Assembly (NCBI GenBank): GCA_037893245.1
Contig: JBAIAA010000603.1
Span: 1,488,001 to 1,552,000 of the forward strand
Reading direction: 5' to 3'
From: Crossaster papposus
Lineage: Eukaryota; Echinodermata; Asteroidea; Velatida; Solasteridae
DNA: 64,000 nt
Part shown: positions 1,059 to 63,495 of the stretch, piece after piece
Position numbering within the stretch: position 1 is the stretch's first letter
How the letters are laid out: each line of letters starts with the position of its first letter
The notes under the pieces: model-generated
What the model saw: only the letters and a program-made list of their open reading frames with translations
Told to the model about the DNA's origin: nothing
Database searches by the model: none
Position numbers and translations under genes: made by a program

Positions 1059-17680
<16,622 letters not shown>

Positions 17681-17699
17681 CTTGAAAATGACCAATCTC

Positions 17700-19050
17700 A
17701 GCTGTGTACAGAGCGTATGGTACAGAGGGACCAGACTAGTGTAATGTATTTGACGACTATGGGCGTTTACAAAACGGAGGCTAGAAGTAGGCTTGGGCTA
17801 GATTTTTGCGGCGCCAGTTTGAAGCCTCATGCCAAACGTTAACGACGGGCTAGGCTACGCGAAGTAGCCCGGGGCTAGATTAACCAAGCCCGAGCCTAGC
17901 CCTAGTCTCAAGCCCCATTTGGTAAACGCCAGCCTCATATCTACTCTAGTTCCTGAACTTCTCATATCCTCAACATTTCCTAAAATCAAAATGTAAACAA
18001 ATTGCGCCATACTGTGAAATTATTTTCCTGACCCTGTCGCCGGCGATGTTGATTTGTTTTGCAATCTATTTCTACACCTTTTGCACCTGTTCCAATCCTA
18101 CTCGACTGAATTTCAATGATCTTCTTGTTATTTTGTGCGTTTCTGCTGGTTGTGCAAAGTTGTAGAACTCACTGAACTGAAAGTTTTGTACTCCAGTGCC
18201 CCATAATAATCAGTATATTAAGTATCAGTATCAATATCACTCACTCATCAGTCACGTCACCAGCGCTTAGCATCACAGGTGAACAGAATAAGACAAGGTA
18301 AGAAAATCTTTGACAACAACCAGAATAAGGCCACGTTCATAACTTTTGCCTAAGTATTACTAGGCCTAAATCTACAGTAAAGTGTAGCGCCAGTAAAGAA
18401 ATAAAGCACCAGCAGTAATTGGCGGATACATGCGCTTTATAAACATTCATTATTATTATTATTTATTATTCATAAATACCTGGGACAGTTTAGGCATTCC
18501 TATTGGTCGAGAGCCCGTCACGTGGCCGGTTTTAAACGGACGATAAAGACATGGCTAGAAGTGTTTAAAACCAGTTGGCAACAAAAGTAGCCCCTGCACA
18601 TGGACAACTCAATGGACATCCTTCTCCGGGCACTTCACTGCTGCGCAGACCATTGTTCTTATCTATTTTGAACCATTCGGGTGCAAAATCCTGTTTTCCT
18701 CCAAATATGACGAATTTAAGAAAAAAAGTCTTCCACTTTTTAAAAAAATTCCATAAGTCGTGCACAAACGCGGTCGCGTCACGTTCGTTCTTTTCCCTTT
18801 GAAAAAAACACGCGCGCGTACGCCATTTAGACGCGGAGGCCTATCCAGTCTATATAATGGAGATCAATGGTAAATACGCTTTATTGCATGTATTGTGACG
18901 TAGAGCGACAGAGGCGGAAACATGTCATTTGACAGTGGCCCGTGAACATGGATAGGGGAAAACACACAGAATGGCGAAACACCGAAATTTACTTGCGACA
19001 ATTTGCCGTGATTTTCGGGGCTTTTTTGGCTGAATTTTACAAAAAAGGTA
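17700..19050. other. Intergenic DNA between DHX40 and the RWD gene, first part
   Basis: No gene is recognised. 18395-18470 reads like a SINE tail (GCGCTTTATAAACATTCATT followed by ATT repeats). Confidence 0.45.
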
Positions 19051-22747: not shown

Positions 22748-23489
22748 GTAAGTGGGCAAAAAGTATGTACCGTAGCTGACATAGCTGACACATCTCTTTC
22801 CCGCGCTGCAAAGAGATGCCGGGATGAGATGCCTAAGACTTTTTCATGCTTTTTTTGCACGTCAACGAGACCAGAATTATCTCTTTTCACAATTAAATAA
22901 TTTCTGAGATAGGGGTGCTGGCAGTTGAACATTAAGCAGTTGAACATATAGCTATACCGAACAGCATCTTTGTTCCCTGAATTTGTCTACAAAAATACAT
23001 TGTTGTTAAAAAAATGTTAACGGATTAACAAAATCCACCATCCTTAGCTTTTGATTTTTTGTTTAAACAATGTTGTTGAAAATGTGTCAACAGGTTTTCT
23101 AAAAATCCACTTGGTACACGTATATCAAACGCGAACGTCAAACAGCCGGTGCTTTACGTAAAAGAGGGACACCATCTTAAAAAATGTGCACCTGATGGAC
23201 CGGCAGCTGAAAATCGCTATACCGAACAATATACCAAACAAAATCTGTGGATCCCGTAATGTTTGTTATAGCGGCTTTTCACTGTACTGAGTCCTCTTAA
23301 TATTTTAGCCTCATGAAACATTTGAAGATTTTTATGAGCTAAATAGTGAGTAAAGTTGGCCTGAATTTTTTCTACATGTTTTTCAGCACTCCTGGTCTCT
23401 GTCTGGGCGACCTCCAAACAAAAATGGGGTTGAGCCCCTAAATGTTTTTGTTTTTTTACTTCACCTTTTTATATTTGATTTTTCCTCAG

Positions 23490-23685
23490 ATTATGGCAGA
23501 GGCATCAGCAGATCAACTTTCTCATTTCTCGGAAGATCTAGCCAGTGAGCTGGAGGCACTACGTGCAATCTTTGGCAGTGAGGGAGAAATTAAAGTCGAG
23601 GAGTTGCCTTTGGGCAGTGAATACTGTTGTGTGGTGCTTGTGAAACCTGAGACTCTGGCTGTGAGCCTGAAGTTCTCCCTACCGG
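23490..23685 (+). CDS. RWD-MJ1316-2H gene, coding exon 1
   Basis: Acceptor TTTCCTCAG before 23490 shows an upstream exon exists. ATG at 23493. Encodes residues 1-65, the first half of the RWD domain (ELEALRAIFG is the typical RWD first helix). Donor CCGG|GTAAGT. Confidence 0.9.
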
Positions 23686-26600
23686 GTAAGTTGACAGTCC
23701 CAGTGGTCATCCCGTGTCAATCACACAAAATCAGAGTATCTCCCATATGACTTGACTCTCATTTACCTGGAAAAATTTCAAGAAACATCGTGGTATACCA
23801 AACTAAAAAAAATTATGTTTCAGCTTGATACCTCTAATGGTTTTTCTGTTCCAGCCTATGAAAGTATGGGTTAAAATTAGCAAGGCGGGACTCTAACCGG
23901 TGAACAGCGCTCTGCCAACTGAGCTATCTTGCCCTATGTTGGCGGTCTCCCAAATTGTCAGTATCTTTGTTCAAGAAATCATAAACACCAGAATGCCGAG
24001 TGGCCAGGGATCATACCAAAGTTTATGATACAACCCAGGAAGCGACATTGTGGGGATCACTCAATGAAGTTTCGACTTTTTATCTTTTAATACACTAAAA
24101 TAAACAACAAGGGTAACTGACTAGGTAAATTTGCATAAATATCAAAGTAAAAATAAAATTCGGCAAGGCGGGATTCGAACCTGCGACCTCCGGGAATACC
24201 AGGTGTGACGACATCTGCACATTGCGAGTTAGTCTTAGCAGCATCTTGTAAGGCCTATACATGTATATTCCCATCCAATGAAGATAAAAAAATTTGGAAA
24301 GCTGATAATTTGAGGCTAGGCTAATTCATGGCCATATTTTCAGATTCTGTGAACAGAAATTAATTACCTTTTTAAATTCTAATGTAATCGACCCCCAAAC
24401 TCCTCATTTTGTGTGTCGTTTAAAAGTAGGATATAAACCTCCACATAGCCATCCTTTAAAAACTGGGCATTTTTGTGTTATTCTTGTGCAAAACGAGTTT
24501 CTAGGGTCACTTTTCTGACCATTTGGGTGTAGTGGCGATTCCATGACAACGTAAATGTATATAGCTGCGGCGATGCTGCTATATATCTTGCAGACATTTT
24601 ATTAGAGTGGCATGGAACCTCGATTCCCAGTGTGATATCAGTTGTGTTTTTAATTATCTGTTTGCGGCACCATGCAGTCTGATGCCGTCACCACGCTAAA
24701 TATACAAGATACAGCCCAGAATATCATGACGGCTGGAAATGCATGAATACCTCAAAATATTTGCCAGGTCAAATGTAAACAATTACGTGCTTTTTCTTCT
24801 TCTCGGGATTGGTTGGCTTTCTTTTCAAAATATGTTTGAAATAGGATAAAAACATTCAGGGCATTCAGGTGATTTCAGGACATACATGTAGTGCCCTTTT
24901 AAGGCAAAGCAACTGTCTATGATGACTTTATTATTATGACTTATTTAGGAGAAAAAATATCTTGCCGCTGTGTGATATCGGTCTTGAATTCAATGCACTA
25001 TTTGTGGCACCAGTCTGACGCTTTTACCCGCGTCTATTATACGAGACACAGCCCATAATTCCATGATGGCTGTAAATTCGTATACGGATAACCCAACATT
25101 TTCGCCGCGTCAAATGTAAACATGTTTTTTTTTTATCATTTCTCAGGAACGGTAAGACATTAGGTTGTTTTCTTTAAACCAGATGTTTAAAAAGTAAATA
25201 ATCCAAAACATATAAAAAAATTAGGATTTCAGGACTTACGCCCTTTAAGATAGATCTACAATTGTTTTAAGGATTACTTCTCTACTCGCCAACACTACAT
25301 GTGGGTGAACAATCACCTTAGCTTTGGGTAACCATATATATTTTTGTTTTAGAAAGCCTCAATCGTAAATAAAAATGCCATCCCAAGTACCATACATTTA
25401 TGATTTGTGGTTTTTTTTTAAAACAGACACTTACCCCGACAAAAGTCCAAAGATTGAGATTCTATCAAACGAGAAGAACGTCAAACTACCGAGTGGCGAC
25501 CCACTCTTAACTGAGCTTCTGCATCTGCTGTATCAGTCAGCGCAGAAGTCCGGTGGAGTACCAGTGATGTTTGCGCTGATTGACATTGCCATGGAATGGC
25601 TAGATGGGCAGAGTTTAGGAGAAGAGGTGGCGGATAAAGATGATGATGAACAAGAGGAATCAGGTACTTATGTGTGTTCATCTTTCACGAAATGCTAAGA
25701 CGCGTCTTAGGAAGAGCAACTCGTCCTAACTCGCGACTCGTCCTAGGATTGATTTTATCAAAGTTAAGACGCGTTCAACACTTCCTAACTTTCATAGCAA
25801 CGTGGCTGAACTCATCTTAACTTTAGATCGGTCGGAGTGTCATCCTATATCATGAATACCTGCATCAATTTGTATATCGTCTGTAAATCATTGCATTATT
25901 TCTTGTTAAAGATGAATGTTCGGCCTAGAGTTTTTGATAATGTATTTAGTTTTAGAAACATGAATTATTTATACACCAACAACTAGTCGACTCTGTACGT
26001 GACTGTATTATGCAGAGTAGTTGTAGTTCGTGTTCTATGCACGCGCGCGCACGCTGGAGATTTGCGTGTTTCTTTTCAACGACTGTTTCCTCTAGCGGTA
26101 AAAACAAACATGAAACAGCCATAAAATTGGTAGTTGATGCATTTTTCCTAAGATGGGTTTAGTGAAATCTAGCTTAGGATACGTCTTAGCCAAGATTGAG
26201 CTTAAAGCTGGGGCTCGTCCTAAAGTCTTAAGATATTTAAAGGTAATGTAGGATACACCATTGGTAATTGCTTTAATTATGAGAAATGGGTGGATTTGGG
26301 GGGTTGTATACATAGTAAATATCGTTTAACTGACCTGTCGGAAGTTTTACAATCATAGATGCTGAGAAAAGCAAGAAATACATGTAGGTTGTTTGTTTGC
26401 AACCGGCGTCAGGCAGTGGTTCTTATGTTGTTCTTGTTTGAATTTTGTTTTAGAAAAAAAGTTTTTGGAACAATTTCAGGATATCTGGCGCAATCCTTTT
26501 GCTGGATGCCTACAATCATTATTTACTTTAAAAAAAGTTATTTGGTTTGGTTTGGGGGCACCCAACAGTGGAGTGTTCAGAAAAAAAAATCGACCTTAAA

Positions 26601-29254
26601 AAAATGAAATGCATGGTGAGGCCACTAAAGGAAGAAACGATTGCTTTACATGTATACATGTACGGGTATGCTGGCCGCAGATCGGACTAAATTTCACCAT
26701 GGAGCTCTTTGATTGTACCGTTGCCATGTAAAGGACTTCCCAGGGAGCCCAGAATAATTCATTCCACTGACAGACATTGACAGACTACTGATAACAAGAT
26801 GGCTATAGATAAGTACAAACAGCGTTGGCTGGCCACAATATTGATACGTTTCATTCAATGCATTTTGGTTGAGGCGTTTTTTGAAGAAAAAAACCACGAT
26901 GTACGGTTCATATCTTTCGGGACGGATCAAATTGAATCAAATTGACTGTTGACATTATTTATTAATACATTTATTTTGGTCTTCAATGTAACTTTGAAGT
27001 TGCGTGTACCTGAACCGGAAAAATGGAACCGGATATTTGGGGTATTCGGGTGCACGGATAGCCGTATACCTGAAACAGGCCTACATCCATCATTATAATA
27101 CAAAAATGCAACTTTACGATTTAAAAGGTATCACAGTTGGTGTGCACCTACATGTAGTTTTTCTCTTCGAATATTTAAACTTGTAAAAAGCTCTTCGATT
27201 TTCGGTTTATGATCAAATATTCAAATATTTGGGACAGCCACCGGAGATGGACCTACACATGGTAATGCATTTGCCCCAACTTTAAAGGTACCGGTAGTAT
27301 ACACCATTGGTAATTGCTTGAATTATCATGAATGGGTAGATTTGGGGGGTTGTATTTTATAGTAAATATCGTTTAACTAACCTGTCCGAAGTTTTACAAT
27401 CATGAATGCCGAGAAAAGCACGAAAAACAGCGGTTTTTTTCAACCGGCGTCGAGCAGTTATTCTTATGTTAATTTTATAATGAAAAATTCGCGATCGCCA
27501 GACGGCGATCGCGAATTTTTCATTATAAAATTCAATTTTTCGGAATAATTACAGGATATCTAGCGCAATAATTTTGCTGGATGCCTAGAATCATTATTTA
27601 CTTTCAAATGAGTAAGACATTTCCTAATAATTCGGTAGTAAATATTTTCGATATCTGCAAATGGTGTATACTACCTTTAAATGCAATTCATTGCACAGTC
27701 AGCACTTATCAAGCTTATCAGGGTTAGGGCTGTTTATTTTCTAATAATTTTTGATTACTCGAAAATGCATTTGACTGCATGCTGTACTGGTAAAAGGTTG
27801 CATGTAGAGCACATACATGTAAGTTACAATTGTACAAACTATCAGTGTGAGCAGTTTCAACTCTCAAGGTGATTGCACAATGAAATGCAGAAAGACAGGG
27901 CTTCATTCATTTGTGTAGACTTGCACAAACCCATCATCGTTGTTTGAGTGCCAGGAGTACAGATGTACTCATTCCAGAATTTTCTTTACTCGAATGAAAC
28001 TCTAATATTGCACTTTTTGATGCTCCGTCATATTTTTAACCTTCAGTCCAGGATGAAGAGATGGCCCAGCCACTAACCCACAAACACAACAAAAAAACAA
28101 CAAAGATTGACAACGATGAGGAGGAAAACTACAAGAAAAGGGAGAAAAAGAAAAAGACGAAAAAACCCATCGAAGATAATCAAGGTCCCGGAAAGAAACC
28201 TCGGATGAAGACGGCCTCAGAGGTGATCTCCCGCATCCAGTGGGACAAGCAGTTTAACAAGGAGGACTTCGTCATTGGCTACTTGGATCGCTTCAGGGGT
28301 GTCATCGAAAAGCCTTTTACCGCGTTCACCTGGGAGGATATTGCCACCGTTGATGATTACGTCTCGTTTGCGATACCGCAACACCGCATCCAGTACTTCA
28401 AGTACAAGGACCGGGTCGTTTGGGATAAGAAGGAACGGTTGGATGACATCTTTGGATCAACGAGCGCGAGCGGCAAGAAGACAATCCTGGACACCATAGA
28501 GATGTTTTCTAAGGAAAACCAGAGTGTGGAAGAGAAGGAGACAAGTGATGCAGTCGGAGAAGACTTTGCAATCGTTGATAAGGGGGTGGCTGAAGATTCA
28601 GTTCCCGCGCAGGATGCAGCATTGAGAAAAACAAAGTGCAGACCTCCACGATGCCCCAATTACTTCGTGGCCATCCGTGTGACCGACCCTGTCATCCGTA
28701 GGTGCGTCAGACGCATCCAGGACGCGATCTGCGATGATGATCCCCGTCTCGACGGCTCGTGCGCCGACCTGGACCGTCTCCACCTCACAGTGTGCACAAT
28801 GCAGCTGAACAGCCAGGATGACAAGTCCAAAGCTATCGACGTCCTGAAGTCACTTCAGCGCGACATCTCAGACCTCCTCTCACCAGTCACCATGCTCCGA
28901 TTCCAAGGACTCGACCAGTTTCACGGCCGGGTCCTGTTTTCACCCCCGGAGAAATGCCCAGCCCTCTTGAAACTCTCCCAGATGCTCCAGACTGCATTGG
29001 GCGAAGCGGGCATCAATTTGGCGGGTAACTTTCGGGAATTTAACCCACACATGACTATTTTGAAGATGACACGAAACTACGCTGATAGGTTTGGCGCCAC
29101 ACCAATATGCTCCTATCTTTATGGGCGATTCTCGCAGGCATTTATTGGGGTGCAACCCATAGACACCATTCACTTGTGCTCGATGGACGATTCCCCAAGG
29201 GCTGATGGGTTCTATTATTGCCTTGCTAGTATGGACATTCAATCTGAGCATTGA
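23490..29254 (+). CDS. RWD-MJ1316-2H phosphoesterase protein (LENG9-like)
   Basis: Coding exons 23493-23685, 25427-25663 and 28047-29254 join with GT-AG sites and matching phases into 545 residues. Domains: RWD, about 10-130, with the family YPDKSP (67-72); a lysine-rich nuclear-localisation-like linker (157-197); MJ1316/DUF504, about 199-281 (VISRIQWD, FVIGYLDRFRG, AIPQHRIQYFKY, RVVWD); an acidic linker; a 2H phosphoesterase domain of AKAP7/LigT type, about 347-540, with both catalytic H-x-T motifs, HLT (389-391) and HMT (478-480). MJ1316 domains are proposed to bind RNA cyclic-phosphate ends and 2H enzymes act on 2',3'- or 2',5'-linked nucleotides, so an RNA-end role is inferred. Human LENG9 has MJ1316 plus 2H but a CCCH finger instead of RWD; no CCCH exon was seen here. 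No break was seen. Confidence 0.9.
23870..24075 (-). mobile_element. tRNA-derived SINE
   Basis: On the minus strand: AGTGATCCCCACAATGTCGC, TATGATCCCTGGCCACTCGG, GAGACCGCCAACATAGGGC, A box TAGCTCAGTTGGCAGAGCGC and B-box-like GGTTAGAGTCCCGCC. This is the best-preserved copy of the family seen at 3095, 4690 and 5215. Confidence 0.75.
24160..24240 (-). mobile_element. tRNA-like SINE head
   Basis: Minus strand has B box GGTTCGAATCCCGCCTTGCC at about 24163-24182; the A box region is degenerate. Confidence 0.5.
24590..25130 (+). repeat. Diverged direct duplication in intron
   Basis: 24640-24785 and 24970-25120 share order: GTGATATC, GGCACCA, CAGTCTGA, ACAGCCCA, ATGACGGCTG or ATGATGGCTG, and GTCAAATGTAAACA. 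The spacing is about 330 bp, so this is an old tandem duplication. Confidence 0.65.
25427..25663 (+). CDS. RWD-MJ1316-2H gene, coding exon 2
   Basis: Encodes residues 65-144: DTYPDKSPKIEIL, the helical second half of RWD (ELLHLLYQSAQ, MFALIDIAMEWL) and an acidic tail. Acceptor AAACAG, donor TCAG|GTACTT. Confidence 0.92.
26241..26530 (+). mobile_element. AGGTAGGATACACC-family MITE, truncated
   Basis: TTAA at 26237-26240 then AGGTAATGTAGGATACACC. The body runs through AACCGGCGTCAGGCAG and GGATATCTGGCGCAATCC, and stops near 26530. Confidence 0.75.
27286..27676 (+). mobile_element. TTAA-MITE, AGGTAGGATACACC family, best copy
   Basis: TTAA at 27282-27285 and 27677-27680. Ends AGGTACCGGTAGTATACACC and GGTGTATACTACCT are inverted. 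The centre (27471-27532) is a perfect hairpin. It lies in the last intron of the RWD gene. Confidence 0.88.
27471..27532. repeat. Perfect 29-bp-arm hairpin in the MITE centre
   Basis: Arm 27471-27499 and arm 27504-27532 are exact complements around the loop AGAC. Each arm contains GCGATCGC. Confidence 0.97.
28047..29254 (+). CDS. RWD-MJ1316-2H gene, last coding exon
   Basis: Acceptor CCTTCAG before 28047 keeps the frame as V-Q-D-E-E-M. Encodes residues 144-545 with the basic linker, MJ1316 domain and the whole 2H domain; stop TGA at 29252-29254. GC-rich coding DNA contrasts with the AT-rich flanks. Confidence 0.95.
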
Positions 29255-29685: not shown

Positions 29686-29691
29686 AATAAA
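29686..29691 (+). terminator. Candidate poly(A) signal, RWD-MJ1316-2H gene
   Basis: AATAAA 432 bases after the stop, followed at 29740-29775 by GT-rich sequence (CTGTGTGTTTACATTGTG). Other AATAAA hexamers occur further on, so the choice is tentative. Confidence 0.35.
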
Positions 29692-29699
29692 GTTGAAGA

Positions 29700-31830
29700 A
29701 GCCCACACATTTTATATCAACCAATTCTAAAAACGGTACCCTGTGTGTTTACATTGTGTACATTCTTGTGTGCTACTTCGCTCATAACTTAAAGCGCAAT
29801 TTGAGCAATGGCAGAAACCACCATTTCAAACCATAGTCACTGCCAATACAAAAAAGCTAATTTATTCTGTAGAGTACATTACAAATGTATATTTTTTCAA
29901 TATTCGTTCAATTTTTGTTTAAAGCACAGACACACCAACGTTAAGAAGTAGCTTTTTTAATTGGTTTATAAATAATTTGTTATCTTTCACATCTGTACAT
30001 TTGTGTATTTTTGGTATAAAGTATAAAGTAAATTTCAGAAATTTACGTCTTTTACATTTTTATCAGTGCATTGCATTTGCATATGACTATTTTTCAGCAT
30101 TATTTAATATTTTAAATGATTTATTTACCATTTTTAAATACCTGAAATATATTTATATTAGATGTAATGCATTCTGCCTTTCTAGCACTAAATATTTAAT
30201 GTACAGTATACATGTAATTTGAATACTATTAAAATCTATAAACAAACGTGCAGTTAATTTTAAAAAAAAGTATTTTTAAATTTGGTACAATTAATACACA
30301 CCCTTAAATATATTGACGTATTTTAAAGTGAACTTGTAGATTTGTTTATTTTTAAGAAACTTTTTGGCTCCAGAAATGTGAATATCTGTATAAATCACAA
30401 GTAATATGAATAATAACAATTTAGTTATCTAAAAAAAAATAGTTTAATGTTCCTAATGACATCTTGAATAAACGTAAATATTTGCATAGAAATATTGTAA
30501 TTATCAAAACAAAACCCTCAGAACCTACAAAAATGTACTTTTATATATAATAAATTGAACACTATAATACAGATACAGTAAAGTAGTCCAGTAAATTTAC
30601 GTTAAGACCTAGAACTAATTGCAATATAAATCATTCAAGCGTTAAAGAACTTCAAATAAACAAGCAACATGTGAAAATCTTTTCCAAGCACTTTTTGAAG
30701 ATTAATATTCAGGACTTTTTGTCTTCGAAAATTTCAACGCCTGGTGACGTCGACATGCCTGTCTACTTATGTATTATTTTGCAAAAAGAATCTAGACAAT
30801 TCAAGTTTGATCCTCTATATTTAAAACAAGTGGACAATTATATTCACTGAAATGTTCAGTGAAAGATTTTAACCCGGCCCGTTTTTTCTTAATAAAGGCT
30901 TTTGGCGTATACATTTTTTACAATTATAAGGATATGCTAAGAACGTTAATTTCTCAGGAAACAAACACACGAATTTCGGATTTGGGATATATCCCAGAAT
31001 TGGGCTCAAGCTTATGCATGGATAATGAGTCACTTCGTGCACATCATTGTCCGCCCCTGTTTTAATTTGACCTATTTATGCCAAAACAAATGGGTTATTG
31101 AACATGAGGTGATTTATTTAAACTATTAATAATTCTGACTGTTTTCAAGAAAATACAAAATATTATTGTGTGGCAAGGTAGATTCCCATAATACTATATA
31201 AATTGATAGGCATAGGAAAGCCGTCTGCAAAGTCTAGTTTTGCGGTGTCGCATGCGTGATGTGACCGAATTTTCTGACGGTTAACCGATTTAAAAGATAA
31301 ACGACACTTCCTGTGTACCGGCCGTTGTTGTATAATAAAAAAAATGTTAGCGAAAAAGTGAATACAAATTACTTTTCACTCGTTGGGGAACATTAGGTTT
31401 TAAGTATGTCAAAGAATGATACTTTCCCCGCGTGACATTGTTTTGTATTGCAATTACTTTTACGTCAGGTCGTATTTTGATGTAAATTGACCGGACTAAA
31501 GGTCTTACAAGTTATGACAGAAATGCCCACCATTTAAACTTATCGAGAAAACAGCTCGCTGAAATTTTATACAAGGAAAAGACATTTTAAACATTTGTCA
31601 AATGAACATCTACATTTACCCTTTTTTTCTCTAAAATACCTAAATTGTTAAACTATGATGTTCCATCAGTTATTATTGTATGTAATTCTGACTTTTTAGC
31701 AATTATATCAATTTACTGTATAATGTAAGCAGTTAACCTAAACAAAGTGCAATTATTGTAAAAATGTAAGTAGGTTGTATTTTATACATTTCAATCATAT
31801 TTGTTGTGAATAAAACTGTCTTTAGTTGCA
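29700..31830. other. AT-rich intergenic DNA
   Basis: Very AT-rich sequence with only short random frames. No repeat family or gene is recognised. Confidence 0.5.
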
Positions 31831-31837
31831 GTACTAG

Positions 31838-32150
31838 TTATAAAGATAGGATACATACACCATTGGTAATTGCTTGATTTATCACGAATGCGTGGATTTC
31901 GGGAGTTTACTATTTTATAGTAAATATCGTGTAACGGACCTGTTTAAAGTTTAACAATCATGGATGCTAAGAAAAGCAAGAAAAGCGGCGATCGTTTTCA
32001 ACTGGCTTCTGGCAGTAGTTTTTATGGGTTTTTTGTGTGCTTTTTTTTTCGCAATCGCCGTCCGGCGATCTTTATTTTTTTATAGATTTTAATTTCCATT
32101 TTTCTTTTGCAATTACATGATATTTAGCGCAATCCTTTTGCTATCTGCAC
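31838..32150 (+). mobile_element. AGGTAGGATACACC-family MITE, decayed
   Basis: GATAGGATACATACACCATTGG start, GTAAATATCGTGTAACGG, and the CGCAATCGCCGTCCGGCGAT centre match the family. The right half is lost. Confidence 0.7.
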
Positions 32151-34222: not shown

Positions 34223-35360
34223 TCATAACAGACTATGAAACTTATCAAAGCATGGTAGTACACACATTGGTTTGTCACACTGTTTACAAATCATGCGAGT
34301 TTGTTTCCGGTTGGCTCTTGTACTGCAAACAACACAGTTGCGCTTTTTGCCGGCAGAAATTCTTCCAGGATAGTAATGAGTCGGAAAGCGGCTGGAACCA
34401 CGTGACACTTGACTCGCATGCTGAGCTGGGTTGTGCTTTAAAGTGGAAATAAGCTCTTCTATGACCTTCAATCTGAAATCCAAAGTGGCCAAGTGCTGAT
34501 TTGTAGGGATGCTGTTGTATACAATGGTAGCATTCACCAAGCAGATGTCAAGAATGGCCACGAAAACTCGTTTTTTAAGGGTGCGAGTAGTACTGACACA
34601 TTTGTGCTGCGAGATCACTTCCTCCCATGTATTTATTATAATCATTAACGACAGAAGGTTTTTTGATCGTACGAAGTCCACTCAAACTGTTTTTGCTCCG
34701 AATGTCTTTCGTGTCGATATTGCAGTTTCCAACATTTGTGAGAAGAGTAACGCTTGGCATCCTGCCAAACGACGCACAGTTGGCCGGCTTTGGTGTTAAA
34801 CTGGGGGTCATGTGTAGCTTTTTTGGGTTGGCACAATCTGGAATCCCCAGTGTTGTGTAGCGTGCAGTTCCACAGGCTCCAAACTTTAACTGTGATAACT
34901 TGCAGATGAGAGCTGGGCTTGTGTACCAATTGTCCATGAAAATGAAATGTCCCTTATTTTCGAGTCCTGTAATTAGGTCGAGGACTACAAGCCCAGCAGC
35001 CTGTAACATTAGGTTGGTGGTGTGTTGAAACATAACCAATGGAGGGTCGACTGGATTCCTTTGATGTGGGCTGGGAGCCGGTGAACACCTTCCAAACACA
35101 GGTATAACCAGTTTCTGACTCGTTAAATGAAAAAAACATTTTAATCCCCATTTGGCGGACTTTCGTGGCATGTACTGTTTGAAACCAAGTCGACCTTTGA
35201 ACTTGATTATTGTCTCATCAGGTGAGGGATTTTGGCCTGGCTTGTAAATGCGAAGAAAGGATGGCAGTACAATGTCAAGCAGCGGGCGGACCTTGGACAG
35301 TTTGTCAGGGGGAGCATCTCGTGGTTCAGCTGTCACGACGTTGTTGGCAAGGTGGAACAA
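34223..35360 (-). pseudogene. piggyBac transposase, decayed
   Basis: Two overlapping minus-strand frames (35360-34575 and 34681-34223) cover the C-terminal two thirds of a piggyBac transposase. Seen: LSKVRPLLD, DETIIKFKGR (first catalytic Asp region), FMDNWYTSPAL (second), VNDYNKYMGGSDLAAQ (third), then, in the other frame, RVFVAILDICLVNATIVYN and a cysteine-rich end with CxxC, CxxC and CVLPCF. The reading frame shifts around 34.58-34.68 kb and the N-terminal part is missing, so it is not functional. Its own TTAA ends were not located. Confidence 0.9.
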
Positions 35361-35535
35361 TTTTAGATTTTCGCACGCGCGCGTCCTGGCTTTTTAAGCC
35401 AGTTTGAAACCAATAATAAACCACACAAAAAGTGAGGGCGCTGTTCACATTTCAGTTTATGGGGACATAATCTCTTTGGTTGCCAACGTCTATGCAAATT
35501 TGAGCCCAGGTGGCGCGTGCGGTACCCATATGGTT

Positions 35536-40031: not shown

Positions 40032-40259
40032 TCCCTTCAACAACAAAGGTAATAAGAGTCGCATGGCGCGACCTAATTTATGTGATAATTGTTCGTGTGC
40101 TAGAACGATGGTCGAGCCCAACGAGCAAATCGTGGCGTCAATGCGTAGTCCAATATTGAGAATTATTGCGAGTGATATTGATGTGCATCGTGTTTGCCGT
40201 GCAAATGCCCGTCAGTATAAGCAGCCTATCACGTGCAGACATAACGCACACTTGTTAAA

Positions 40260-41213
40260 ATGCACGGGAACGAGACTGCATCGACCTTACCGGGCGGTAA
40301 TGAGCCAATAAGCCCGGAGATAATCGCTCTTCGCACCGCCTACATCGCCTTGAACAGCCTGGCGATCATCCTAGCCAACGCCCTGACGCTGGCCGTGATG
40401 TGGCGAGCCCGCGGGGAGTTCCCTCCGGGTTCCACTAAGCTCGTCATGACCTCCTTGGCGCTCGCAGACCTAGCTGTCGGGGTGTTGACCATTCTTTGCG
40501 TCCCCCTCTCTGCGATCGACCACTGGCCCTTCGGAGATACTGTCTGTACCCTAATGTGCTCCATCTTCTCCCTATTTGGTGGTATCTCCATCAGTAATTT
40601 GTTGATGCTCACCCTAGATCGCCTTGTAGCCATCACAAGACCATTCTCTTACCCAACTCTCATGTCCAAGAATCGAGTCCTCTGCATGACTTTGTTCCAG
40701 TGGATCACTTGCAGCATTGTGATGGCGATCGTCATGGCCATCGTGCGACCGCCAGTGCGGTACAACCACGCCGCCGCAGTGTGTTTGGTCCAACAAAGTG
40801 AAGAAACCCTCGCACTCGATGTAAACTATCTCTGTTTGACGTTCATTATCCCCATAGCCACCATGCTCGGTATCTACATGAAGCTCATCCACACGACCAA
40901 CCAACAAGCCAACAAGATTAACACCGTCAACGCACCGGGCGCCGGTAGTTCCCAGTCCAAGGCGAGCAGCGGTAAGGCCGTTCGAATCTTCTTGGTGGTA
41001 GTCTTAGCGTACACGATCTGCTATCTCCCGTTCTCCGTGGTCCGCGTTCACGGCGATCTGCACCCGCAGGCGACGCTGCCGCCCGTGGTGGATTTTGTGG
41101 GCTTCTGGCTCATGGTCAGCAACAGTTTCTGGAATTTTGTCATTTACGTTGCCATGAACGGTACATTCCGAAAACTGGCCAAACAAATATTACTGGAAAT
41201 ATTCAAGAGGTGA
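40260..41213 (+). CDS. Rhodopsin-like (class A) GPCR, intronless orphan
   Basis: A 317-residue seven-pass membrane receptor in one exon; ATG in TTAAAATGC. A glycosylation site (NET, residue 4) lies in the short extracellular N-terminus. Helices: about 25-48, 60-85, 95-120, 140-162, 188-210, 240-262, 277-298. Family marks: LALAD in TM2 (Asp70), Cys96 and Cys175 for the extracellular disulfide, DRL at 120-122 (DRY variant), CYLP at 254-257 (CWLP variant), and N288-S-x-x-N292-FVIY (NPxxY with Phe for Pro). Phe103 occupies the position where aminergic receptors carry Asp, so a classical amine receptor is unlikely. Ligand unknown. GC-rich coding DNA in AT-rich surroundings. Single-exon GPCRs often occur as expanded families in marine invertebrates. 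Confidence 0.9.
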   Translation: MHGNETASTLPGGNEPISPEIIALRTAYIALNSLAIILANALTLAVMWRARGEFPPGSTKLVMTSLALADLAVGVLTILCVPLSAIDHWPFGDTVCTLMCSIFSLFGGISISNLLMLTLDRLVAITRPFSYPTLMSKNRVLCMTLFQWITCSIVMAIVMAIVRPPVRYNHAAAVCLVQQSEETLALDVNYLCLTFIIPIATMLGIYMKLIHTTNQQANKINTVNAPGAGSSQSKASSGKAVRIFLVVVLAYTICYLPFSVVRVHGDLHPQATLPPVVDFVGFWLMVSNSFWNFVIYVAMNGTFRKLAKQILLEIFKR

Positions 41214-54067: not shown

Positions 54068-57000
54068 TTATAACTGCGGTGTCTCGAGGGGTGTAGTCAA
54101 CACAACTGCTTGCTGTAGGAAACCCTCAAGCCATATTTCTAGTCTGTCGCTCAGAAGGGCACTGTTCTCTGGTGTGAATGTGGTTGACGTCTCCGTGTGA
54201 ACTCGCTTGTTGGACGCCTTAGGGAGGTGGAAGGGATTGTGGTGTTTCCCGGCATTCACACGGGTTGATCGTCTCGCCGACTCACTTATGGGCTCCCTGG
54301 AGGTTGTTCCAGTAGCTTTTGCGGTCTTGACAACTGGAGTTGGGGAGGGCTGTTGAGTGTCATCTGTACACTCGGGTGCAACAGGGACTTCGCAGTCTAT
54401 AGTTTCATGAAGGAGACTAGTGTGGTGGGTACCTAGAACTGGAGACACAATATTGGAGGCTTCAGGTACTGTAGCCTCCTCTACTACGTTCAAGCTCTGG
54501 GGTTCATCTGGTGTTTGCAGGACATCTGTAGTGTTAGACATCATCGGATCAGGGAAGACTGCAGCCACACTAGGCTCCGCTGCTATGTGTGTGGCATCGG
54601 GTTGGATGATAGCACTTGCCATCTTAGATCCTTCTGAAAAAGAACTCGCCGCAGGTTTTGCAACTGAACTGAACTGTACCACAAGAGTCGCTTTGTCCAG
54701 GTTGTCCTGGTCCTTCCTCTCGGGACCCGCTGGAACGACCTCTGATGACACTCTATACTTCTCTGTCTGCCGGGGAAGTGTCGAGTTGGCAGGCTCCTCT
54801 GCTGTTTCAGAGGACTGGGGTGTCACTTCCTCCTGATCATCATCACTAAGGTCCGGGACAATTTCCTTGGTGTCTAGAATCTCGGTTCTGGTGACTCGCT
54901 TCAGTGGTCCAGTGCCATCTGCCAGCTGAATCTCGTACACATTGTCTTGGGGTTGTGATATGACACGATAGGGGGTTGCTTTCCAGTGATCTGAGATCTT
55001 GTTTCTTCCAAGGGGGTGACTTCGAAGGAGAACTCTGGTACCGATGGTGATGCCTTTGTCATTTTCCCTAGCATCGTTGCGCTTGCACCGGTTGGCAATC
55101 TTCACCTCCATCCTTTCCTTAGCTGATGCAGCCGCGCTTCTCAATCTCTGCTGATGTTGCTTCACCCACGCATCTAGATCTGGTGTTGGTGTGGTCTTTG
55201 GCTCTGCTAACCCAAACATCAGGTCGATTTGTAGGGTTGGCTCTCTTCCCATATATATGAAGAAAGGTGACATGCCGGTCGATGCGTGCGGCGTGCAGTT
55301 GTATATGAAGACCAGTTCCTGCAGATGTTCCGGCCAGCGCCGCTTCTGTTCCGAGGGTAGGGTGCGAAGTAGATTGTGAAGGGTGCGATTAAAGCGTTCG
55401 CACTGCCCATTACCCTGCGGGTGATAGGCAGTCGTCCGGCTTTTGACTATACCGTAGACAGAGCACAGGTCCTTTACGAGTTGGGATTCAAAGTTTCTCC
55501 CCTGGTCACTATGGATGCGCCTGGGAACACCATACTTCTGAAACCACTCCTTGACCAGTACCTTTGCGACAGTTGATGCCTTTTGGTCACGGCACGGTAC
55601 TGCCAAGGAAAACTTACTGAAAACATCGGTCATGACCAGTATATTTTCCCGACCATCAGAAGATTTTTCCATTGCGGTGAAGTCGATAGCGAGGACATCT
55701 AGGGGATGCTCGGCCAGGAGTGTTCCCATGGTGGGTCTGATATTAGGAGTTGGTGCCTTGGCAACTGTGCATCGTTCACACTTCTTGCACCACTTCTCTA
55801 CATCTGCAGCCATCCCAGGCCAGAAGAACCTTCGTTTGACCAGCGCTAGGGTGCGCTCCTGTCCCTGGTGTCCCGCTTGATTGTGAAGTGCTGTTAGTGC
55901 CCTCGGCTGTAGTTTGGCAGGCAAGAGCATTTGGGTTCGATCACCTTCAACAGGATCACATGAATGAAGATAGAGGACACCATCCTTCTCCTGAATCCTA
56001 TCCCACTTCCGCAGGAGGTTTTTTGCCGCTCTGGTCTCGTGTCTCATGTGATTTGCAGCTGGTCTCGTGCCATGTTTCCAGAACACACGGAACCTGGAGA
56101 TTACTGGGTCTGCATTCTGCAGTTGAGCCAATTCTTCAGGAGGGTATTCTGGCAGGGTAGTCATCGCTGGTGGGGCCTCTACCGCAATGGCTGAACGAAC
56201 ACTGCCGCAGGTTGCACTCATGGTTGCCTCTGCAATCTCTCGTAGTGATGTTGAGTTGGTCGCGTCTGCTAGGGTCTGTTCCGCGTGAGCAGTCTGGCGA
56301 CTCAGAGCATCAGCATTGGTGTTTAATCGGCCGGAACGATACTTGATCGTGAAGTTAAATTGGGCAAGCTGGCTCACCCACCTCATCTCCACTGCAGCAA
56401 GCTTGGACGATTTAAGATACGACAATGGGTTGTTATCAGTGAAGACCGTGAATTCCGCCCCGAGGAGATAATCACGGAACTTCTCTGTAACAGCCCATTT
56501 AAGAGCCAGTAGCTCAAGCTTCATCGAGCTGTAGTTGGACATGTTCCTCTCTGGTGGTCGAAGACTGCGACTAGCATAGCTTAGGACTACCTTGCCGTGT
56601 TCCTGCTCTTGGGATAGGACAGCGCCCAATCCATCCAGGGAGGCATCCGTTTCCACGATAAATGGTAGTCTGAAGTTGGGGTAACCCAGGATGGGTGGGG
56701 ATGTCAGTCGTAGCTTTAGCTCGTTGAAGGCCTTGGTGCAGTCTAGGGTCCACTGTCGCTGAAATTCCTGCTGTTGGCTTGATGATGGACGCCTCCAGGC
56801 GGCCCCCTTCTTGCACCCTTGCTTTGTGAGGAGTGCATGAAGCGGTGCTGCTATCTGACTAAAGCGCTTCACAAATTTCCGGTAGTAGCCATCTATTCCA
56901 AGGAATGCTCGCAACTCCTTCTCAGTTTGGGGTTGTTTCCAGCCACCAATGGCCTCCGTCTTGGCAGGGTCAGTAGCGATACCTCTTGCAGAGACAACAT

Positions 57001-58735
57001 GGCCTAAGTACTTACATTCCCCCTGGAAAAAATGGCACTTCTTGGGTTTTAGTTTTAAGCCATGTTGTCTTAGTCTCTGGAACACCACTTCCAGCCTCTC
57101 AAGGTGTTCCTCGAAGGAGCTGGAAAACACGAGAATGTCGTCAAGATACAGAAGGAGACTCCCGTAGTTGAGGTCACCGAGGATGACCTCCATCAGCCGC
57201 TGGAAGGTTGCCGGGCTGTTGCTGAGTCCGAATGGCATACGGACGTATTCGTAAAGGCCACCAGTGCCTGCACGGAAAGCTGTCTTCGGGATGTCCTCCT
57301 CAGCGACCGCTACCTGGTGGTACCCCTGTACCAAGTCCAATGAGGAAAACCTTCTTGCACCTCCTAGGGAATCTAGGGCCTCGTCGATCCTTGGGATGGG
57401 GTAGGCATCCTTCCTCGTCTGTTCATTCAAGGCCCGATAGTCAACGCAGAGGCGTATACTACCGTCCTTCTTGCGAACGATAACCACTGGGGCAGCATAT
57501 GGGCTGGTGGAAGGTCGGATGATTTTCTGCTCCAGCAGTTGTTGCAGATGGGCCTTGACGTCTGCCATTTGGTGTGGGGGAATTCTACGGTGGGGCACCC
57601 GGACTGGGTGTTCATTGGTGGTAGGGATCTTATGGGTTACAGTGGTTGTGAAGCCCAAGTCATTCTCTCCATGGGAAAACACATCCCTGTATTTCCCCAA
57701 GATTTCCATAAGTTTCAGCCGTTCATCGTGGTCTAATTCTGTCTCTTCGAGATTGACATCGAAGGGCAGAGGTTCGAAGGGCAGAGGCTCGGTGTCTGGT
57801 TGCCCTTTCGTATAGAGATGGTTGGACTTCACCTCCCTGACATCTTCCGTATCAAGGTGGATGCCGTCGCCTGTCTCATGGATAGTACCAGAGCTTGATT
57901 GGAGGACTTGAATGGGGGATACGATGCCGATCCGGCTCTTCGGCTGCAACCACACGTCCTCCTCACTTACGTTGACCAATTGGGCAGACACTGTACCATT
58001 CTTTGAGAGGGAACACGTGTCGATCAGAGCTATGTTCTTGGGGAGGTTGCCAGTACCACCACTGACAGCCTGGGTGAGCACTTCTTGGGGGCCACTCCTC
58101 CGTTGTCTCGTGGAGCAGCTCACCACCTTGACACTATGGGCAGGGACACAGATTGGCGTTTCTCCTTTCAGTCGGGCGAATCCGGACTTTGCTCCATCCC
58201 GTTCGGCAATCTCATACGCCAGTAGCGCTTCTGCCCATCGAGGATTTTCCTCTGTTCGTGTCGCTTTTAGGTAGTTGCCGCCATATTTTTCCTTCAAGGC
58301 TTCCCTCACTTCACTTATGACGTTACATCCGAGCAGGCCAGTAGGTTGGGAATCTGCCCGAGACGTCTTGGAGACTAGGACTCCTACTTGACTGAGTTTA
58401 AAACCTAGGATTTCCATCTCCAGCTCTGTGTACCCAGTGTACGGCAGTTCCATTCCGTTTGCCGCATACACCTTCAGCCATTTGGTGACATCTTGCACAG
58501 CAGGCTGTAGGGGTGACAACTTGCTGAACACCATCTCTGGTAAGATGGTTACCTCACTCCCAGTGTCGAGGACGAAGCGGACTTCCTGCCCCAACACTGT
58601 TATGGTCACTTCCGGGCTCTTTGAAACTGCTCTATTAAAGATGTCGCTTCTGCTCCAATTCGTTGAGCCAGTTAATCTTCCCTCCAATGCCTGGCTCGTT
58701 ACTGTGGAGGGTTGGCGTTTGGGGAATCCTGGCAT
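54068..58735 (-). mobile_element. LTR element pol region (protease, RT, RNase H, integrase)
   Basis: A single frame of about 1555 codons. Seen in order: retropepsin-like FVLDTGSEVTILPE, reverse transcriptase with YLDDILVFS, RNase H with ETDASLDGLG, chromodomain-free integrase with an HHCC zinc region (CKKCERC) and the core beginning LAIDFTAME. Domain order RT-RNase H-integrase places it in Ty3/Gypsy. It looks whole. Confidence 0.95.
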
Positions 58736-59703
58736 ACTCGTTGAGATGGGTTGAACGGCGTGGCCTCGGGCCAGTTTGGGCGGGAAGCATGGGCTTGTCT
58801 AGGGAATTCCCTTCGGGGTCTTGGGGGTTGCGGGCAGTATCGAGCGATGTGACCAACCTCGTTGCAGTTGTAGCAGGTTGGCGGGCCTCTGCTTACCCTA
58901 GTGGGGCCAGGGGTCTTCTGGTGTGACAGGAGTAGGGAAACCTGTCCACAAAGCTGATTCAAGGCGTCCTGGGTGGCTTTTAACTGGGTGGCCTGCTGAT
59001 CCAGCTGATTTTGGAGACTAATTTCCGTGTCTTCTATCTTTACCTTCGCTGCACGAGCCTCTGCAATGGTGGGTGGCGGGGGGCTTTCCCAGGACATGAC
59101 CTTGTTCCTGAGGTCAGCGAACTCAATTCCTGCGTGTTCTTGGGTGTATCGCCTGACCTCTCTGCGTAGGGATGCGTCAGCCAGGCCCGACGAGAACCTC
59201 TCGTTTAAGATGCCGTCTTTATTATCAAGTAGGGGACTGCCCTCGGGTGAGGCGATCTCCACCTTCCTTAGCAACTTCAGCAGGTTCAGGGAGAACTCCT
59301 GAATGGACTCGCCCCCTCTCTGTCTTCGGCCGTAGAAGTCTTCCCAGCGGGCAGACGGTGTTTCATGACATGTGTATGTCTGGAGAATATGTTCGATTAT
59401 TCTGTCTGCAGTGCTTCTCTCCGAAGGGGGGCAAAGTCGGATCTCCGCTCGTGCACCACCAGTGAGGTGGTCGAGCACCATCTGTGCACCCTCGTCGTCC
59501 GACATATCCTTAGTCAGCCGGCGCATATCTTCCGCCCACTCGCGAACTTCGGGATCTTTGTCGCTGGTTGGCCTTCCCGCCAGTTTCGTACCCCGGTCTC
59601 GAGGCACGACGACTATTTTTGACATGCTGGCTTTCCCTTTGTCGCTCTTCATCTCCTCCAGCTGTGCTGCCAACAACCTGACCTGCTCCTGTAGTGCCTC
59701 CAT
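58699..59703 (-). mobile_element. LTR element gag region
   Basis: About 334 codons with a retrotransposon-gag-like helical core and one zinc knuckle (CYNCNEVGHIARYC). It overlaps the start of pol by a few dozen bases in another frame, as is common in this family. It looks whole. Confidence 0.93.
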
Positions 59704-59767
59704 CCTCGTTGTTGGTCACGCCACCAACCCTTTTTTTTGCTTTACTTGTAATCCTGTCTACGACGCA

Positions 59768-61164: not shown

Positions 61165-62424
61165 ATCTCCTCTGCTAGCCTATTGGGTTCCACACCAATA
61201 CTGGTACTGTGAGCAACTAAAATTAATCAAGAACTAAAACAAAATGGATATAGCTACGCTTGATAAAGAAAATTATAATATACTTCGACTATCTGGATAC
61301 TGTACTACAGTTCTTGATTGTTCGTTTATAACTGCGGTGTCTCGAGGGGTGTAGTCAACACAACTGCTTGCTGTAGGAAACCCTCAAGCCATATTTCTAG
61401 TCTGTCGCTCAGAAGGGCACTGTTCTCTGGTGTGAATGTGGTTGACGTCTCCGTGTGAACTCGCTTGTTGGACGCCTTAGGGAGGTGGAAGGGATTGTGG
61501 TGTTTCCCGGCATTCACACGGGTTGATCGTCTCGCCGACTCACTTATGGGCTCCCTGGAGGTTGTTCCAGTAGCTTTTGCGGTCTTGACAACTGGAGTTG
61601 GGGAGGGCTGTTGAGTGTCATCTGTACACTCGGGTGCAACAGGGACTTCGCAGTCTATAGTTTCATGAAGGAGACTAGTGTGGTGGGTACCTAGAACTGG
61701 AGACACAATATTGGAGGCTTCAGGTACTGTAGCCTCCTCTACTACGTTCAAGCTCTGGGGTTCATCTGGTGTTTGCAGGACATCTGTAGTGTTAGACATC
61801 ATCGGATCAGGGAAGACTGCAGCCACACTAGGCTCCGCTGCTATGTGTGTGGCATCGGGTTGGATGATAGCACTTGCCATCTTAGATCCTTCTGAAAAAG
61901 AACTCGCCGCAGGTTTTGCAACTGAACTGAACTGTACCACAAGAGTCGCTTTGTCCAGGTTGTCCTGGTCCTTCCTCTCGGGACCCGCTGGAACGACCTC
62001 TGATGACACTCTATACTTCTCTGTCTGCCGGGGAAGTGTCGAGTTGGCAGGCTCCTCTGCTGTTTCAGAGGACTGGGGTGTCACTTCCTCCTCATCATCA
62101 CTAAGGTCCGGGACAATTTCCTTGGTGTCTAGAATCTCGGTTCTGGTGACTCGCTTCAGTGGTCCAGTGCCATCTGCCAGCTGAATCTCGTACACATTGT
62201 CTTGGGGTTGTGATATGACACGATAGGGGGTTGCTTTCCAGTGATCTGAGATCTTGTTTCTTCCAAGGGGGTGACTTCGAAGGAGAACTCTGGTACCGAT
62301 GGTGATGCCTTTGTCATTTGCCCTAGCATCGTTGCGCTTGCACCGGTTGGCAATCTTCACCTCCATCCTTTCCTTAGCTGATGCAGCCGCGCTTCTCAAT
62401 CTCTGCTGATGTTGCTTCACCCAG
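61165..62424 (-). mobile_element. Partial second internal region of the LTR element
   Basis: The 3' part of pol, nearly identical to 53907-55168, ending abruptly at element E sequence. Fossil fragment. Confidence 0.92.
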
Positions 62425-62425
62425 G

Positions 62426-63495
62426 TATACTAATTTTGTTCTGCGTATTCTGACACCTCGATTGTTGGATACGATGTTGGGGAGCGGAGTTATTGTCATT
62501 TAAATAGTCGTACTAGGTCTAGTTTCAAAAGTGACAATCATCCCTATAGAAACAGATCAGACAATAAGATATAATCTCTATATGCCCGCCTTTTCTTTTA
62601 AATTTAAATCGCTGTTTGTCGCATGTTGGATCATATCGATCGAGATGACCATCGGCGTATCCTCGTCAGGAAGTGGCAACAAACAGACGAGCGCCGTACC
62701 TTCTAAACATGTTTACAAACTGAAAAGTGATGTTTACTCGCTAAAAACAGTTGTTATATATTATATTAATTATAACAAGGATTTTACAAAGCAAAATGTG
62801 TTTCTTGAACATTTGAAGCTTCACTGTTCACCTTGTCTCAGTTTTAATTTGTTGTTTGCACGAATCATCATTTATCGATGGATGATTAAAAGTGTATACA
62901 CAAACAATGCATTATGCTTGTATGAACAATATACTTCACGGGTGGGAGAAGTCTCAATGCCTGAAGCTTGACAAAGTAAAATCTTGCATGTGTGCATAGT
63001 TTCTACAGCCGCATGTAAATTGTACATATGTACTGTACATGTACATAGAAATTGTACACCATAAGTATATGCACTTATAAGACTGCGGTCAGCAGTCCAA
63101 GCCCAAAAAGGTCATCTCCCAGGCTTGCGGCTTGGCCGCTGTCATGGGGGTCGTAAATAACCGTCTGATCCAGCTGTTAAGGTTTGTACACAAAACCCCC
63201 GGTGTCGGGGGTTTTGTGTAGAAGTATTAACCAGTTCGCGCCGGATGACGTATATAAACGCAAAAATTTCCCCAAATTCAAAACGGATGACGAATAAATA
63301 CGCCAAGTTCAAGTTCGGAAATGTATGTCAGCAGCGCGCAAGGCCGGAAATGCGTGGGTGCGCTACCCAGCACTATCGGCCTGAACACGCTTCGGATCGA
63401 GTTTCGTTAAAAATAATCCCGCCCGTCGGCTCGGCGATGTAAAAATAATCCCGGCGCGAACTGGTTAAGGTACCAACTTTCACGACAACGTGCTG
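62426..63495 (-). repeat. Element E, copy 2 (inverted, MITE-filled)
   Basis: Reverse counterpart of 46726-47540, with the same hairpin (63188-63219, perfect here) and the CACGACAACGTGCTGG end at the right. It carries the 234-bp MITE at 63231-63464. Confidence 0.88.
63231..63464. mobile_element. 234-bp TTAA-MITE, CCAGTTCGCGCCGG family, intact
   Basis: Perfect 14-bp TIRs CCAGTTCGCGCCGG / CCGGCGCGAACTGG, flanked by TTAA (63227-63230 and 63465-63468). Element E copy 1 has a single TTAA at the same place (46756-46759). Confidence 0.96.

Follow-up and report, generated by a model that had tools for sequence, protein, structure and literature searches.

Gene structure and domain composition

A 64-kb stretch of the genome of Crossaster papposus (assembly GCA_037893245.1, contig JBAIAA010000603.1), hereafter the window, in whose numbering all positions are given, contains a gene whose predicted product combines an RWD domain, an MJ1316 domain and an AKAP7-type 2H phosphoesterase domain. 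Frame-by-frame reading of positions 23490-29254 yields three exons that join in phase into 1638 nt, encoding 545 amino acids followed by a stop codon; the same join had been put forward in an earlier annotation of this DNA (the original prediction). The gene looks like a counterpart of the little-explored vertebrate LENG9 (leukocyte receptor cluster member 9) in which an N-terminal RWD domain takes the place of the CCCH finger. Its parts are as follows.

23493..23685, forward strand: coding part of exon 1, from the ATG at 23493 to the donor CGG/GTAAGT; residues 1-64, the N-terminal half of the RWD domain
25427..25663, forward strand: exon 2, with the C-terminal half of the RWD domain, including YPDKSP, and then an acidic tract; donor CAG/GTACTT
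25664..28046, forward strand: intron 2, 2383 bp, with neither AATAAA nor ATTAAA
28047..29254, forward strand: exon 3, with the remainder of the acidic tract, a lysine-rich linker, the MJ1316 domain, a second linker, the 2H phosphoesterase domain and the stop codon
28121..28204, forward strand: lysine-rich linker, residues 169-196, preceded by the acidic tract and resembling, by eye, a nuclear localisation signal (NLS)
28205..28429, forward strand: MJ1316 domain, residues 197-271 (PF04457, E 5.1e-29)
28655..29239, forward strand: AKAP7-type 2H phosphoesterase domain, residues 347-541 (PF10469, E 2.1e-32)
28781..28789, forward strand: first HxT catalytic motif, HLT, residues 389-391, aligned with HIT of AKAP7
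29048..29056, forward strand: second HxT catalytic motif, HMT, residues 478-480, aligned with HLT of AKAP7
29686..29691, forward strand: possible polyadenylation signal, the first AATAAA 3' of the stop codon

The joined protein matched seven Pfam families, three of them below their own cut-offs. All three domains named in the original prediction were recovered: the profile search, which could have come back without an RWD match, placed RWD (PF05773) at residues 14-123 with an E-value of 2.1e-12 and 47.7 bits against a gathering cut-off of 22.8, and the MJ1316 (also DUF504) and AKAP7_NLS matches exceeded their curated cut-offs. The 2_5_RNA_ligase2 family matches part of the AKAP7_NLS region. 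YPDKSP, an instance of the YPxxxP motif, was located at residues 67-72 within the RWD domain, and the lysine-rich linker and both HxT motifs lie where listed above, as previously described. The domains, motifs and predicted gene model are thus established at the level of the sequence. The closest solved structure to the 2H domain is that of AKAP7 (5jj2, E 1e-22), while the RWD part is closest to RWDD1/DFRP2 (E 3.8e-7) and then to GCN2 (E 0.012).

In LENG9, to which the protein had been likened before, the MJ1316 domain is followed by an AKAP7-type 2H domain. The other part of that likeness, the pairing of an MJ1316 domain with a CCCH finger in LENG9, is stated in the passages available from PMC9635633, and the N-terminal position of the finger in PMC9635633 and PMC2478707, likewise consulted as excerpts. 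The seven matched families do not include zf-CCCH, the DFRP C-terminal region, a kinase or KH. A CCCH pattern sought within single exons in all six frames of the window occurs only antisense, at 30828; a finger split between exons or lying outside the window would escape this search. Because two of the three LENG9 features are present and the finger was looked for and not found, LENG9-like is the best name for the gene. Relatives of the exon 3 protein were not found in the viral and other genome contig collections scanned, which hold no metazoan genomes. The open-licence PMC literature yielded no report of RWD paired with MJ1316, a 2H phosphoesterase, AKAP7_NLS or LENG9, a scope within which the combination cannot be claimed as unreported.

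Exon junctions

Donor sites were ranked among the 349 GT sites of the region with a hand-entered weight matrix, and the exon 1 donor came second. Taken alone, exon 1 matches positions 1-58 of the RWD profile (E 0.022, below the cut-off) and exon 2 positions 60-112 (E 1.6e-4, 22.3 bits), so that neither reaches the cut-off that the joined pair exceeds. Since the two exons match complementary halves of the profile, the predicted intron 1 join (23685-25427) is well supported. An acceptor-like CAG ends at 23489, just 5' of the ATG, so a further 5' exon upstream of 23493 is likely.

The predicted intron 2 join (25663-28047) is less certain. The exon 2 donor ranked 25th of the 349 sites, which weakens intron 2, and exon 3 carries the MJ1316 and 2H matches by itself. 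Exons 1 and 2 could instead encode a small RWD protein, with exon 3 an intronless LENG9-like gene read from its own ATG and the fusion an artefact of reading phase. The low rank of the donor speaks for such a division, as do the 404 open codons of exon 3 with an early in-frame ATG, the stop reached 11 residues on when exon 2 is read through its donor, and the chance of one in three that unrelated exons join in phase. Three further observations, each of them indecisive, favour the join: GT and AG consensus bases stand at the right places, the acidic tract continues on both sides of the exon 2/exon 3 junction, and AATAAA and ATTAAA are absent from the 2383-bp gap, where 2000 first-order simulations gave 4.4 on average and none at all in 1.4% of cases. 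The last is a weak sign, because 32 of the 617 stretches of the same length across the window are also empty and three AATAAA occur in intron 1, whose join is well supported. Two separate genes are regarded as improbable.

In those other RWD genes of the genome that were read, no shared intron position was found; introns lie near, at a different residue, which gives the gene model no support. Within intron 2, an interspersed repeat is present at 26236-26429 and 27281-27470 and recurs at 15342-15704 and 31855-32026, and an inverted repeat is visible around 27480-27530.

Copies and related genes in the genome

Profile searches of the 1.02-Gb assembly, made exon by exon, found MJ1316 at two places, namely this gene and a copy on contig C267. 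Over 9.9 kb the copy has 99.7% identity to the gene region; its three frames are preserved, and the GT and AG bases of the introns are unchanged. The two differ in 30 alignment columns, four of them in exon 3, too few for a selection test; the copy carries three extra bases directly behind the first donor GT, and a single P-to-L change. Most likely it represents the other haplotype, and so gives the gene model no independent support. With this probable haplotypic copy set aside, the gene is the sole MJ1316 gene found in the assembly.

Further AKAP7_NLS genes comprise an AKAP7-like gene on contig C120 and a KH plus 2H, ASCC1-like gene on C571, both named by eye. The RWD profile gave 15 matches at E-values up to 1, nine of them above the cut-off; two of the 15 are the gene and its copy, and RWDD1-like and IMPACT-like genes (also named by eye) are among the others. 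Exons of RtcB were found on C51 and C90.

The MJ1316 domain in archaea

A search with a degenerate MJ1316 pattern returned 25 stretches, many of them archaeal. Within one archaeal phylum, MJ1316 matches were found in 43 of 101 genomes, 38 being above the cut-off, and the 43 matches sit in open frames of only 78-156 codons, too short to hold the other domains of the Crossaster protein. The archaeal alignment comprised 31 sequences from 32 loci, L079 having been left out for lack of the [IVLA]P.HR motif. As the rows were picked by this motif, the conservation of its P, H and R is by construction; R225 is free of that bias, and its equivalent is invariant in all 31 sequences, while the equivalent of W209 is tryptophan in 26. 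R225, W209, W269 and P254-x-H256-R257 of the Crossaster protein are shared with archaeal MJ1316 domains, R225 and P-x-H-R being the archaeal positions without any variation.

A frame for a NOG1-type ribosome-binding GTPase lies downstream of MJ1316 on the same strand in 12 of the 32 archaeal loci:

L063, L064, L066, L067, L068, L070, L074, L075, L078, L084, L085, L088: archaeal loci with MJ1316 and a NOG1-type GTPase frame

The NOG1 profile was built from six of the 12 loci that it later matched. Measured between stop-to-stop frames rather than mapped starts, the two frames overlap in ten cases and are separated by 3 bases in one and by 178 in another. This neighbourhood loosely links the MJ1316 domain to ribosomes. 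It could also speak for a nuclear RNA-processing or large-subunit maturation factor, whose basic linker would send it to the nucleus or nucleolus and whose MJ1316 and 2H domains would act on a processed RNA end. The lysine-rich linker fits such a factor and looks, by eye, like a nuclear signal, a resemblance that the original prediction passed over, but it may bind RNA instead. Archaeal translation genes often cluster, so that the link to NOG1 may be incidental. A nuclear role would agree with excerpts of PMC8406329, which describe AKAP7 as nuclear and count USB1, which acts on U6, among the 2H enzymes. On balance, a nuclear factor of this kind appears improbable.

Proposed function and possible substrates

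From the domain architecture we infer an activity, a substrate, a partner and a place of action. With a probability of roughly one half, the gene encodes an RNA-end or 2'-5' phosphoesterase equipped with an end reader and an RWD anchor, the partner of which would most likely belong to the translation or ribosome-stress machinery. The 2H domain, in which both HxT motifs are intact and which is closest to AKAP7, is probably an active phosphoesterase; its reaction would be the cutting of 2'-5' linkages or the processing of RNA termini by way of 2',3'-cyclic phosphates. Holding the 2',3'-cyclic-phosphate end would fall to the MJ1316 domain; according to the passages available from PMC6514570, this domain recognises 2'-3' cyclic ends of RNA and occurs across eukaryotes in fusions with RNA-repair domains, and also with C12orf65-like proteins. 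The RWD domain would anchor the enzyme to a protein partner such as GCN1, a protein found on collided ribosomes and a reported partner of the RWD domains of GCN2, RWDD1/Gir2, IMPACT and RNF14 (PMC10931611 and PMC8040806, in excerpt). By analogy with these proteins, recruitment to stalled ribosomes through RWD, as suggested in the original prediction, is plausible.

A more specific version, in which RWD would dock on GCN1 at stalled ribosomes, MJ1316 would capture the 2',3'-cyclic end of a cleaved mRNA or tRNA and the 2H domain would resolve it, LENG9 having lost or never had its CCCH finger in such animals, is considered unlikely; if true, it would tie the healing of RNA ends in animals to the sensing of ribosome collisions.

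The 2H domain also admits a substrate that the original prediction overlooked, the 2'-5' oligoadenylates (2-5A), and for the enzyme domain this alternative is at least as well grounded. The protein would then degrade 2-5A made by the many OAS enzymes, with MJ1316 binding the 2',3'-cyclic product or the substrate end and RWD merely placing the enzyme, and it would be a brake on innate immunity rather than an RNA-repair factor. The genome has at least 23 OAS1_C exon matches, 15 of them on two contigs (ten on C596 at 635-875 kb and five on C364 at 2.385-2.533 Mb), and the two OAS loci inspected keep the GGS...DVD motif, a nucleotidyltransferase motif. Because OAS genes are so numerous, 2-5A control is a serious rival. 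Excerpts of PMC8406329 describe AKAP7, related viral enzymes and a 2H enzyme of oyster as cutting 2'-5' links independently of metal and leaving 2',3'-cyclic phosphates. Those available from PMC2478707 report that mouse Leng9 rises on macrophage activation and follows activation markers. Against this substrate stand the separate AKAP7-like gene on C120, which could do the job, and the lack of a visible 2-5A effector: Ribonuc_2-5A gave a single partial match (profile positions 72-127 of 127) in an exon-by-exon search that could miss others. We take this match, provisionally, to be IRE1. RWD domains are also not known to take part in 2-5A signalling, which counts against such a role. No biochemistry is known to have been assigned to Leng9, the passages on it that were consulted giving none. 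All told, 2-5A control appears rather unlikely. As an observation in its own right, this genome presents an OAS expansion with no visible RNase L.

As candidate substrates of the putative phosphoesterase, cleaved RNA at ribosomes ranks ahead of 2-5A and 2-5A ahead of nuclear RNA, the three lying close together.

Several observations weigh against a ribosome-associated RNA-end phosphoesterase. Both splice junctions are predicted from genomic DNA alone, and exon 3, having its own early ATG, could be a separate transcript. AlphaFold2 applied to exon 3 alone, in the absence of relatives, gave a mean predicted local distance difference test score of 35.9. The MJ1316 domain is identical to the archaeal majority at only 11 of 29 columns. 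RtcB is present in 29 and LigT in all 30 of the archaeal genomes used for a neighbourhood test (the best-scoring 30 of the 43 with an MJ1316 match, from 101 searched), yet neither lies within 5 kb of MJ1316 in any of the 30, one LigT being about 10 kb off (genome G004); the archaeal context therefore gives an RNA-repair role no support. In the first set of neighbour frames tried, six of ten were NOG1-like, and the NOG1 loci probably represent related lineages rather than independent events. The NLS-like linker, if a nuclear signal, would speak against a place at cytosolic ribosomes. In favour of GCN1 as a partner, Tyr67 of YPDKSP corresponds in alignment to residue 74 of chain 2yz0 (yeast Gcn2), chain and protein numbering being assumed equal, and the Gcn2 substitution Y74A disrupts Gcn1 binding (PMC8040806, in excerpt); since this tyrosine is part of the YPxxxP motif that RWD domains share in general, the match does not single out GCN1 binders. 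The RWD domain of RWDD3 binds UBC9, and other RWD domains have other partners, according to the passages available from PMC10931611.

For the proposed anchored phosphoesterase, the RWD partner would be a handle for finding where the LENG9-type core works. Were that partner GCN1, ribosome collisions would be connected with RNA-end processing; were the substrate 2-5A, the invertebrate OAS system would gain a degrading enzyme.

Other features of the window and the assembly

Besides this gene, the window contains the following features.

11081-17797, reverse strand: exons resembling a DEAH-box RNA helicase, from motifs recognised by eye; no Pfam helicase match in the three pieces tried
34578-35393, reverse strand: transposase fragment (DDE_Tnp_1_7, E 2.6e-33), presumably of piggyBac type
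40245-41210, forward strand: uninterrupted frame for a rhodopsin-type G-protein-coupled receptor (7tm_1, E 5.2e-36)
54071-59715, reverse strand: Ty3-like long terminal repeat retrotransposon, with matches to protease, reverse transcriptase, RNase H and integrase and a zinc-knuckle frame
about 61329-62429: part of a second Ty3-like copy, judged from repeated open reading frame text

Elsewhere in the assembly, mitochondrial COX1 reads sensibly with AAA as asparagine and AGA as serine (10 AAA and 8 AGA codons), an echinoderm-like code. These assignments characterise the echinoderm code and are found in flatworms too. Read with mitochondrial table 5, COX1 has lysines where conserved asparagines are expected. 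Contig C8 (>5 Mb) carries long uninterrupted COX1 and RtcB frames, which suggests a bacterial contig from a symbiont or contaminant.

Comparison with known systems

ASCC1 consists of a KH domain and an AKAP7-type 2H domain. It shares the AKAP7_NLS match with the Crossaster protein, which has no KH match in Pfam; the KH plus 2H combination resides in the separate gene on C571, its KH domain having been recognised by eye. RWDD1/DFRP2 (Gir2 in yeast) and GCN2 share the RWD domain, RWDD1 being the closest, and where they have a DFRP region or a kinase, neither of which was matched here, the Crossaster protein has an RNA-end module.

AKAP7/AKAP18 and the oyster enzyme that degrades 2'-5' oligoadenylates have the same 2H domain with both HxT motifs; the available passages of PMC8406329 do not mention MJ1316 or RWD for them, whereas both are present here, and the genome has an AKAP7-like gene of its own. 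The stand-alone MJ1316 proteins of archaea share the conserved arginine, the two tryptophans and the P-x-H-R motif, but differ in being short single-domain frames. LENG9 is the apparent counterpart: the MJ1316 domain and the C-terminal 2H domain are alike in the two proteins, and RWD stands here where LENG9 has its CCCH finger, a swap that marks the end reader and the 2H enzyme as the conserved core.

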